Origin: a virus
IMG/VR virus record: IMGVR_UViG_3300013108_000622
Span: 1 to 64,000 of that record
DNA: 64,000 nt
Direction: 5' to 3' (one strand)
The notes under the pieces are model-generated. The model was not told the DNA's origin. It saw only the letters and a list, made by a program, of their open reading frames with translations, and did not search any database. The position numbers and the translations under genes are program-made. Of the stretch, positions 24,743-62,866 are shown piece after piece (position 1 is the stretch's first letter; every line of letters begins with the position of its first letter).

Positions 24743-25570
24743 ATGCCAAGAAATAATAAGGACCGAATGGGGGTTCAAGACGAAAACCCACCTTTGGTCG
24801 CAGAAACGAATTCAATTTTAAATTTTGTAGTTCCTACTGAATTTGTAGAATTACCAACAAAGGGTCTATTTTATCCCCCGGAACATCCATTACATAATGT
24901 CGAAAGTGTTGAAATCAAACACATGACAGCGAAAGAGACAGATATTTTATCTTCAAAAACACTTCTTAAAAAAGGTGTTGCAATTGATAGAATGCTTCAA
25001 AGTATTATTGTAGATAGTTCCATCCAAGTAGATGATCTTTACACTGGAGATAAGAATGCACTCATCATAGCCGCAAGAACAAGCGGTTTTGGTGAAGAAT
25101 ACAGTGCTTCAATAACTTGTACAAACTGCTCAACAGTTTTTGAGCAAGAATTTAACCTTACAGAAGTAAGTGTTAAGCAAGTAGAGGACGATATAAAGTT
25201 TACAGATACGGGGACATTCTTCATTGAACTCCCACAAACCAAAGTAAATGTGGAGTGTAAGCTTCTCACCACTGAAGATGAGAAGCGATTGCTTGCATTA
25301 CTGGAGAAGAGACAGAAGTTAAAACTTCCAGAATCTTCTTTGACAGATCAATATAAATCATTTATAGTTTCGCTAAATGGCGTTACTGAAAGGAGTACGG
25401 TAGAAGAGTTTATTGACTTGATGCCAGCTCGCGATGCAAATTACTTGAGAAAAGAGTATGATAGAGCAAGACCAGATGTGGACTTAACCCACGTTTGTGA
25501 TTGTGATAATTGTGGCGCGACTGTTCAAGTAAATATTCCTTTTACCGCCAACTTTTTTTGGCCTCAGTAG
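24743..25570 (+). CDS. Tail assembly chaperone / gp26-like baseplate hub protein, zero-frame product
   Basis: 275 residues. Belongs to the T4 gp26-like (T4_baseplate) group: ELPTKGLFYPPEHPL near residue 32, EIKHMTAKETDILSS, and two cysteine pairs, CTNCSTVFEQEF (about 128) and CDCDNCGATV (about 252), that could bind zinc. It occupies the classical position of tail assembly chaperones, between tube and tape measure. Near its 3' end the run of seven T (25553-25559) can shift reading into the frame described at 25533-25742, which would add a conserved 60-residue extension. A sigma70-like -10 (TATAAT, 24706) lies upstream without a good -35. Confidence 0.82.
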   Translation: MPRNNKDRMGVQDENPPLVAETNSILNFVVPTEFVELPTKGLFYPPEHPLHNVESVEIKHMTAKETDILSSKTLLKKGVAIDRMLQSIIVDSSIQVDDLYTGDKNALIIAARTSGFGEEYSASITCTNCSTVFEQEFNLTEVSVKQVEDDIKFTDTGTFFIELPQTKVNVECKLLTTEDEKRLLALLEKRQKLKLPESSLTDQYKSFIVSLNGVTERSTVEEFIDLMPARDANYLRKEYDRARPDVDLTHVCDCDNCGATVQVNIPFTANFFWPQ

Positions 25571-25742
25571 TAAATATGCTGAGTCTGTTTATGAGGAAAT
25601 ATTTTATCTTAAACAATATGGTGGGTGGAGCTTTCTAGAAGCCTATAATTTGCCAATACGTATCCGACAATGGTGGTTGCGGAGACTTATTAAGCAGTTA
25701 GAGCAGGAACAGGAAGCAGTGAAAAATGCTCATAAAAAGTAA
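25533..25742 (+). CDS. Frameshift extension of the tail assembly chaperone (+1 or -2)
   Basis: The +1 frame is open from 25533 (after TAA 25530-25532) to the stop at 25740-25742 and has no ATG, GTG or TTG ahead of its conserved part. From 25560 it reads GLSSKYAESVYEEIFYLKQY, GGWSFLEAYNLPIRIRQWW and a helical charged tail, 60 residues. The YEEIF..LKYYGG.SF.EAYNLP pattern is what I know from the C-terminus of gp26-like proteins of other T4-like phages, where it is fused in frame. At TTT TTT TGG the peptidyl-tRNA(Phe) on TTT can slip forward one base onto TTT. The product would be 332 residues. This is read as a programmed frameshift of the G/GT type. Confidence 0.75.
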   Translation: MFLLPPTFFGLSSKYAESVYEEIFYLKQYGGWSFLEAYNLPIRIRQWWLRRLIKQLEQEQEAVKNAHKK

Positions 25743-25748
25743 AAGATT

Positions 25749-25828
25749 GGAGTGGTGGCCGATTGGAAGGTGGTAGTTTTTTAAATTATTGAGCGAAAGC
25801 TTTGGGGGTTCGATTCCTTCACACTCCG
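25749..25828 (+). tRNA. Class II tRNA-Ser-like gene with apparent UUU anticodon
   Basis: 80 bases folding as a tRNA. Acceptor GGAGTGG (25749-25755) pairs with ACACTCC (25821-25827) except the last pair (G7-A66). D arm GCC..GGT with GG in the loop. Anticodon stem GTAGT/ATTAT (two G-T pairs) with loop TTTTTAA, putting UUU at 25780-25782. Long variable arm with stem GAGC/GCTT and loop GAAA. T arm GGGGG, TTCGATT, CCTTC. Discriminator G73; CCA not encoded. Long variable arm, TGGCCGA D-arm start and G73 are serine-type, yet UUU reads Lys AAA codons. It may be a decayed gene, a decoy or an unusual decoder. Confidence 0.72.
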
Positions 25829-25837
25829 TTTTTTTTC

Positions 25838-25861
25838 AAACCCCTTTATGGGGTTTTTTAT
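25838..25861 (+). terminator. Intrinsic terminator after the tRNA-like gene
   Basis: AAACCCC (25838-25844), loop TTTAT, GGGGTTT (25850-25856), then TTTA and an AT-rich tail. A second T-run (25829-25836) directly follows the tRNA-like 3' end. The hairpin closes the tube/chaperone/tRNA transcript, and a late promoter box follows 12 bases on. Confidence 0.85.
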
Positions 25862-46670: not shown

Positions 46671-47363
46671 ATGAATATAAAAGATTTAAAAGAAATGGTT
46701 CGAGAAGCCTTGACAGGGCTTCCAGTATTGTTGTCTAAACCAAAATTAATTGTAGAGGCAAATTATGGACGTGTAAAGCGAAGAATAGAGGATGAAAAAA
46801 TCCCGTTTGCCATGTTAACTGCCTCTCGTGGAGATTATAATCAAAAAGAAAATCAATTAAGGAATAAAGAGCTTAAAATGTCTTTAGACACCGCTGGTTT
46901 TCCATATGTTTTAATGCCTGGGAGTGGATATAAAGAAGGAGGCTCTGACGGCGATGTCGTTACAGAAGATTCAATACTGGTATGGAATGAGCCTCGTGGC
47001 GACAAATTCCCATCAAGTGGTGGGTTGTTTGATCTAGCTTCTCGTCTATCAGAGGAATTTGAGCAAGATTCATTTTTATATGGTGGACCACGAAAAGGCG
47101 ATAATGAAAAGCCATACGCAATTCACTTATACACCAACACAGGTGAGATTATAGATGAAATTTGGGCCGGAGGAGAAGAAGGTTATAATGAGCTTTTTGT
47201 TGTAGATGATGCCGCTGAATATTGGTCTAAAATTGCTGGTAAAAAGACGCAATTTAAAGAAATTTTAAATAAATGGAATAATTTTAATTCCAAATCTCGT
47301 CTTGATGCGATGAAAAAACAATATTACATAAATCTGGCAGAATCCAAACTTAAAAATGATTGA
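46671..47363 (+). CDS. DUF3293-like protein with N-terminal helical tag
   Basis: 230 residues. N-terminus MNIKDLKEMVREALTGL resembles the helix tag of the head-region proteins. The following domain (about 40-165) has FAMLTASRGDYNQKENQLRNKELK, GFPYVLMPGSGYKEGG, EDSILVWNE and LSEEFEQDSFLYGG, the spacing of DUF3293 proteins (T/S-x-x-N .. N-x-x-L .. G .. E-S .. Q-x-A/S). That family has no settled function. C-terminal 60 residues are helical. Finding the tag on a gene in the RNR/ThyX operon is unexpected. It overlaps ThyX by eight bases. Confidence 0.7.
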   Translation: MNIKDLKEMVREALTGLPVLLSKPKLIVEANYGRVKRRIEDEKIPFAMLTASRGDYNQKENQLRNKELKMSLDTAGFPYVLMPGSGYKEGGSDGDVVTEDSILVWNEPRGDKFPSSGGLFDLASRLSEEFEQDSFLYGGPRKGDNEKPYAIHLYTNTGEIIDEIWAGGEEGYNELFVVDDAAEYWSKIAGKKTQFKEILNKWNNFNSKSRLDAMKKQYYINLAESKLKND

Positions 47364-61852: not shown

Positions 61853-62866
61853 ATGAAAAAGGGAATATGTTTTGACGACGTATTGTTGGTTCCTAAATAT
61901 AGCGAGATAAGATCCAGAAGCGAGATTGATATTGGCAACCGTCTAGGCGGGTCAATAGAACTAAGATTGCCGATTATCTCATCTCCAATGGATACTGTAA
62001 CCGAGCATTGTATGTCTGTTGTTATGGCGGATAAGGGCGGGATGGGAATTGTCCATCGCTACAACACCATTGAAGAGCAGGCAAAATTGATTCCGAAAGC
62101 AACACTCGTCGGCGCAGCCGTAGGTGTAAACGGAGATTACTTGGAACGCGCCCAAGAAATGGTCAATGCTGGTGCAAAATTGATTTGTGTTGATATCGCC
62201 CATGGGCATCATTCACTTATGCGCAGTGCCCTGTGGAATTTAAAGAACAAATTACCACGAGAAATTCATTTGATGGCTGGAAATGTTGCAACCTCTGAAG
62301 CCTTTTACGATCTTGCTTCTTGGGGAGCAGATAGTATAAAAGTTGGCATCGGAGGCGGAAGCATTTGTTCCACTCGTATCCAAACTGGTCATGGTGTGCC
62401 GACTTTACAGAGTGTCATAGATTGTTCTACTGCTTCCTTTGAGACCGGAGTTAAAATGATTGCAGATGGAGGTATAAAAACATCAGGTGATATAGTAAAG
62501 TCTCTCGCTGCTGGAGCAGGATTTGTTATGTTGGGCTCGATGTTAGCAGGAACGCACGAATCACCAGGTGAAATTATAGAGCCAAATAGCGAAAGACCTC
62601 GAAAAGCATATAGGGGTATGGCGTCTAAAGAAGCACAAGTTGAGTGGAGAGGGAGTGTATCCTCCAGAGAGGGTGTTGCCACAGAAATTCCTTATAAAGG
62701 TAGTGTGGAGCCCATCTTAGAAGACTTGCAAGTAGGCATACGCTCAGGATTTTCATATAGTGGAGCCTCATGTTTAACAGAGCTTCAAGAGTTTTCTAGT
62801 ATGTTGCAGCAAACCAATGCTAGCCGCAGAGAAAGCTCAACCCATATTATGGAGCAGGGGTTTTAA
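61853..62866 (+). CDS. IMP dehydrogenase / GMP reductase family enzyme
   Basis: 337 residues. TIM-barrel of the IMPDH/GMPR family: FDDVLLVPKYSEI, LPIISSPMDTVTE, GGMGIVHRYN, and the catalytic loop KVGIGGGSICSTRIQTG with C172, then IADGGIKTSGDIVKSLAAGA and AYRGMASKEA. The CBS regulatory domains of bacterial IMPDH are absent, leaving a core-only enzyme closer in size to GMP reductase. It either makes XMP from IMP (towards GTP/dGTP) or IMP from GMP. In the same operon as dUTPase. Confidence 0.9.
   Translation: MKKGICFDDVLLVPKYSEIRSRSEIDIGNRLGGSIELRLPIISSPMDTVTEHCMSVVMADKGGMGIVHRYNTIEEQAKLIPKATLVGAAVGVNGDYLERAQEMVNAGAKLICVDIAHGHHSLMRSALWNLKNKLPREIHLMAGNVATSEAFYDLASWGADSIKVGIGGGSICSTRIQTGHGVPTLQSVIDCSTASFETGVKMIADGGIKTSGDIVKSLAAGAGFVMLGSMLAGTHESPGEIIEPNSERPRKAYRGMASKEAQVEWRGSVSSREGVATEIPYKGSVEPILEDLQVGIRSGFSYSGASCLTELQEFSSMLQQTNASRRESSTHIMEQGF

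Follow-up and report, generated by a model that had tools for sequence, protein, structure and literature searches.

The 64,000-nt stretch of DNA analysed here (hereafter the window), which derives from a marine phage, carries one lone tRNA gene, and this gene can with high confidence be described as a serine-type body bearing a UUU (lysine) anticodon. As the best explanation we tentatively propose, regarding it as close to evenly balanced, that a tRNA-Ser(UGA) was acquired by the phage and that, with the constraint of decoding relaxed, its anticodon arm drifted to UUU.

Detection and fold of the tRNA gene

ARAGORN returned a single tRNA call within the window (25748-25829, anticodon ttt), and the Rfam family RF00005 matched positions 25749-25828 with 40.8 bits and an E value of 3.4e-5, while 150 dinucleotide-shuffled windows gave one ARAGORN call. 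Drawn by hand, the standard cloverleaf contains 23 of 24 pairs over the acceptor, D, anticodon, variable and T arms (Table 1), against at most 21 standard pairs in mononucleotide shuffles of the tRNA sequence. A chance fold was rejected from these matches, the shuffled controls and the pair count, and the initial annotation, according to which all arms fold, with TTCGATT in the T loop and G73, is confirmed by the same evidence. The expected conserved bases U8, A14, G18, G19, U33, A37, A38 and G53 and the TTCGA motif are all present. Three further features had not been listed in that annotation, namely the G7·A66 mismatch, the lack of an encoded CCA, and an anticodon stem free of G-C pairs (two G·U and three A-U). 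Since this stem pairs in one register only, leaving the loop UUUUUAA, the anticodon UUU is fixed by geometry. The sequence comes from one record of the phage, and a lone assembly mistake within the T-run is conceivable.

Table 1. Coordinates of the tRNA gene, its neighbours, and class II tRNA-Lys loci in other genomes
Feature	Position	Strand	Evidence or remark
Class II tRNA-like gene, Ser-type body, UUU anticodon, G73 at 25828	25749..25828	+	ARAGORN, Rfam, Ser covariance model 53.2 bits
Acceptor stem, 5' strand GGAGTGG	25749..25755	+	Pairs with 25821-25827 ACACTCC; 6/7 pairs, G7·A66 mismatch
D arm GCC-GATTGGAA-GGT	25758..25771	+	3 pairs; G18 G19 retained; loop shorter than in relatives
Anticodon arm GTAGT-TTTTTAA-ATTAT	25773..25789	+	5 pairs, 0 G-C
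Anticodon TTT (UUU)	25780..25782	+	UGA in nearest tRNA relatives
Variable arm GAGC-GAAA-GCTT	25791..25802	+	4 pairs, one unpaired base 5' of T stem (Ser-type)
T arm GGGGG-TTCGATT-CCTTC	25804..25820	+	
8-T run immediately 3' of G73, CCA not encoded	25829..25836	+	Sequence
Baseplate hub-like protein gene, upstream of tRNA	24743..25570	+	PHROG 150
TTTTTTT slippery run and frameshift extension ORF (+1 or -2)	25553..25742	+	Stop 25740-25742, 6 nt 5' of tRNA
Intrinsic terminator AAACCCC-TTTAT-GGGGTTT	25838..25856	+	
Class II tRNA-Lys loci	L083:5208-5293, L084:5907-5993, L085:2966-3052, L086:4447-4527, L087:3255-3340		
Class II tRNA-Lys loci	L088:5414-5596, L089:5674-6082, L090:3495-6077, L091:3997-4083, L092:3990-4078, L093:3990-4077		

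Serine-type body and comparison with phage tRNAs

In pairwise comparison with about 300 phage tRNAs, the anticodon being masked, the top nine matches were without exception tRNA-Ser, and a body pattern blind to the anticodon matched 47 IMG/VR contigs. Of the 45 IMG/VR tRNAs carrying the CCGATTGG motif, 38 were Ser(UGA) and none had UUU. The two closest bodies found belong to tRNAs of the IMG/VR loci L134 and L159, and the body relatives in GenBank include Synechococcus phage S-CREM1 and Streptomyces phages. Together with the CCGATTGG-type tRNA-Ser(UGA) of S-CREM1, Streptomyces phage Blueeyedbeauty, L134 and L159, the window tRNA has a GGAG acceptor, the CCGATTGG D arm, the variable arm (capped by GAAA in L134 and L159 as well), the TTGGGGGTTCGA T arm and G73; it differs from this type, besides the anticodon, in lacking G-C pairs in the anticodon stem, in its shorter D loop, and in the broken 7-66 pair, which is intact in those members that were checked. 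When the tRNA itself was compared with phages by BLAST, only weak matches to its 3' half appeared (E of 2 or more), the annotated matches listed being tRNA-Ser, plus two tRNA-OTHER. No further CCGATTGG-type tRNA with UUU was found in IMG/VR by pattern search, and wider UUU patterns recovered there only a family with U73.

A covariance model built from 26 phage tRNA-Ser scored the window tRNA at 53.2 bits, which lies at the low end of, and still inside, the range of held-out phage tRNA-Ser (from about 53 upward), whereas a model built from 14 phage class II tRNA-Lys scored it at 39.0 bits, compared with 86.7-100.2 bits for that model's own members. The gene thus has the Ser-type long variable arm, G73 and a body nearest to Ser isoacceptors, with an anticodon that is neither NGA nor GCU; judged as a canonical tRNA-Lys, it has an anticodon of the UUU/CUU type and lacks the short class I variable loop and the A73 expected by class II LysRS. 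The combination of a serine-type body with a lysine anticodon proposed initially is therefore upheld by the nine best matches and by both models, and the ordinary UGA in the nearest-body tRNAs of other phages points to an anticodon shift.

Pattern and BLAST searches also brought up class II tRNA-Lys genes of a distinct family, with UUU or CUU as the anticodon, in phages of Rhodobacter, Ruegeria, Mesorhizobium, Caulobacter, Xanthomonas and Microcystis and in IMG/VR contigs (Table 1), annotated, where annotation is present, as plain tRNA-Lys; no description of this family was found in the open literature searched. With the exact pattern, only one of 84,980 species genomes, that of Thalassospira, contained such genes. 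In Thalassospira xianhensis (L088), a CUU and UUU pair lies about 0.8 kb from a ten-tRNA array, and the genome also encodes a class I LysRS. Both Lys tRNAs of the array of Rhodobacter phage RcXuper are class II, likewise those of Mesorhizobium phage Cp1R7A-A1, and because both are of this type in each array, the family members probably carry lysine. The lysine alternative for the window tRNA gains weight from the existence of this family. The two share a long variable arm and a Lys anticodon, but the phage class II tRNA-Lys (those of RcXuper, Cp1R7A-A1, Caulobacter phages, Xanthomonas phage XacN1 and others) have U73 or A73, never G73 among the 14 model members, a short variable stem of about 3 bp followed by 3-4 unpaired bases, strong anticodon stems and, in most, an encoded CCA. 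In this comparison, the window tRNA appears to have made the anticodon change and none of the family's other changes. Membership of the window tRNA in this family was rejected on its model score, its nine best matches and its G73; that it is an ordinary member, for which the common anticodon and long variable arm might speak, is extremely improbable given the differences at position 73, in variable-arm layout, encoded CCA and score.

Among the phage tRNA-Ser listed, G73 was present in 44 of 51, two of the exceptions being register errors; some tRNA-Ser genes of L108, L110, L116, L129 and L139 end in U73 instead. Long-variable-arm tRNAs with Thr, Cys or Asn anticodons were encountered in phages as well (L094:2992-3077, L085:2866-2952, L109:10567-10654, L089:6092-6179, L110:1718-1800), and class II bodies with the anticodons of other amino acids seem to be common in these viruses. 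A match to permuted/alphaproteobacterial tmRNA (87.4 and 74.1 bits) was observed on the phage contig L083 (3356-3814).

The window tRNA and the tRNA-Ser(UGA) of L134 (the closest relative found and not an ancestor, so that some changes may belong to the L134 branch) differ at ten paired positions: three double changes (5-68, 28-42 and the third variable-arm pair) are compensatory, two changes preserve pairing by wobble, and one pair (G7·A66) is broken. Random placement of the changes was equally good with a null P of 0.0003. Accordingly, past selection acted on the fold across much of the divergence from L134, and the fold was long maintained. The compensatory change in the anticodon stem is C28-G42 to U28-A42, and in the loop three of seven bases (32, 35 and 36) have all become T, converting CUUGAAA to UUUUUAA. 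A G-C-free anticodon stem occurred in none of 599 other phage tRNAs collected, a comparison that is suggestive and not proof, since many of the source phages are richer in G+C; the option of a decaying gene, raised in the initial annotation, nevertheless gains weight from it.

Genomic locus and codon usage

The position of the gene between the frameshift ORF and a terminator, as initially reported, was borne out by the flanking stop codon and hairpin (Table 1). The hub gene is extended by frameshifting at TTTTTTTGG, a sequence kept in 123 of 133 relatives, with TTCTTTTGG in 9. Several relatives show GC-rich stretches of hairpin plus T at the corresponding junction. A consensus scan found no plus-strand promoter near the tRNA, and its co-transcription with the tail genes is plausible.

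At the junction, the gap to the next ORF measures 8-111 nt (median 53) in the 127 relatives that span it, versus 169 nt in the window. None of these 127 has a tRNA there, ARAGORN detected none in 159 relative loci, and 50 relative records contain tRNAs for Asn, Ala, Leu, Ile and Arg only. A tRNA ancestral to the phage group was rejected on these counts, and the gene is best regarded as an insertion that is recent or confined to this lineage. The initial annotation had named an ordinary Ser anticodon at the site in relatives as a sign of local mutation; no relative has any tRNA at the site, and UGA is seen only in the nearest bodies, which belong to other phages. The nearest relative covering the site (L002) has a hub protein 67% identical, and the tRNA may occur in closer relatives than this one. 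A sheath search reached relatives of up to 68% identity, in a contig (L160) that stops short of the tRNA site, and none closer was found via the 103-aa downstream protein. No further tRNA is present in the final 13 kb of the virus record. Elsewhere in the window, positions 46671-47363 weakly matched the Pfam model of S-adenosylmethionine lyase, an enzyme family by which phages counter restriction (E of 7e-4, below the curated cut-off), and positions 61853-62866 encode an IMP dehydrogenase / GMP reductase domain protein (345 bits).

The most frequent codon of the phage is AAA (1040 of 18115 codons, 57 per 1000). At 31 AAA codons in columns conserved among relatives, the relatives have Lys in 28, Arg in two, Gly in one and Ser in none. 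Genome-wide reassignment of AAA to serine was rejected on this basis, and the suggestion that serine might be inserted at AAA as normal decoding did not hold. The code of the phage is, as judged from these columns, standard, AAA being ordinary lysine, and efficient insertion of serine at AAA would damage every protein.

Identity conflict and competing explanations

Serine identity is set by G73 together with the variable arm, the anticodon being of no account to SerRS; for class II LysRS, lysine identity depends on both the anticodon and A73, and G73 reduces it in E. coli; class I LysRS relies on U35 and U36, position 73 being marginal; and with human LysRS, UUU alone gives lysine identity to some other tRNAs (PMC9976931). 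The window tRNA retains both serine elements and adds the lysine anticodon, and which synthetase prevails, SerRS or LysRS, would depend on the host.

Under the favoured explanation, a phage-borne gene of tRNA-Ser(UGA) type would have entered this lineage alone, at a site flanked by the hub frameshift ORF and the terminator, and would long have been kept folded; later drift of the anticodon arm, in which the last G-C pairs were lost, would have placed UUU on the serine body. Transcription would probably occur by read-through from the tail genes, and the tRNA may still be processed. Decoding would be weak or absent, and residual charging, mainly by SerRS, would presumably be too low to matter. 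Consistent with such drift are the Ser body, UGA in the relatives, the G-C-free stem, the broken G7·A66 pair, the loop changes and the reading of AAA as Lys, and the weakness of the anticodon arm suggests a serine tRNA leaving normal use and not a deliberate change of code. Against it, the conserved bases and the 23 of 24 pairs are good for a relic, a compensatory change appears even in the anticodon stem, the new triplet with A37 and A38 forms a coherent lysine-type loop, and the Ser-model score still falls inside the span of held-out phage tRNA-Ser, near its lower limit.

A somewhat unlikely alternative is alloacceptor remoulding, in which the tRNA-Ser would now function as a tRNA-Lys, receive its lysine from LysRS by way of UUU and supply AAA, possibly standing in for host tRNA-Lys lost to an anticodon nuclease. 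The anticodon weighs heavily in recognition by LysRS (PMC9976931), tRNA-Lys is usable by phages against PrrC (PMC11555353), AAA is the top codon, and class II tRNA-Lys exist in many unrelated phages, including as both Lys tRNAs of the RcXuper and Cp1R7A-A1 arrays. However, the gene retains the Ser-type variable arm and G73, a base with which the class II LysRS of E. coli lysylates less efficiently (PMC9976931) and which occurs in none of the 14 class II tRNA-Lys modelled, its class II Lys score of 39 bits compares with 87-100 for members, and its anticodon stem has no G-C pair. Another alternative, a missense tRNA charged by SerRS that places serine at a small but useful fraction of AAA/AAG codons (statistical proteins), is quite unlikely: its serine identity elements are intact for a synthetase that ignores the anticodon, and in yeast, tRNA-Ser with foreign anticodons do mistranslate (PMC9976931), but with AAA so frequent no structural protein would be spared, none of the AAA codons falls at a conserved Ser column, and the gene is not kept in relatives. 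That the phage deliberately carries a seryl-tRNA reading AAA/AAG for low-level Lys-to-Ser substitution in proteins of the host or the virion at a late stage of infection is very improbable.

It is also unlikely that the RNA is non-decoding and acts as a decoy or sink for nucleases that cut tRNA-Lys (of PrrC, AriB or colicin E5 type) or as an mRNA 3'-end processing element. The phage counter-measures to tRNA nucleases known to us are functional replacement tRNAs and not decoys, which argues against such a role, whereas the UUU loop, the past structural selection and the terminator directly downstream would accord with it. Both PARIS AriB (PMC12409363) and PrrC (PMC10264068) cut tRNA-Lys(UUU), although AriB makes contacts also outside the anticodon arm (PMC12409363).

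No phage Ser-body tRNA with a Lys anticodon was met in the literature searched. The same mix of one amino acid's body and another's anticodon characterises alloacceptor anticodon shift, or tRNA remoulding, which, as far as these accounts describe it, concerns mitochondria and eukaryotes (PMC4783518, PMC3923123), whereas here it concerns a phage gene known from its sequence. Allo-tRNAs likewise combine Ser identity elements with a non-serine anticodon, as the window tRNA does with G73, its variable arm and UUU, but have a 12-bp acceptor branch of 8/4 or 9/3 (PMC7609411), whereas the branch here is 7/5 with G7·A66. The window tRNA represents a natural test of the conflict between anticodon and synthetase identity, which may end in inertness by drift, in mistranslation or in a switch to another amino acid. 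In the class II tRNA-Lys family, position 73 and the variable arm have both departed from serine identity, and together the window tRNA and this family make a route from Ser-type to Lys-type tRNA experimentally testable.
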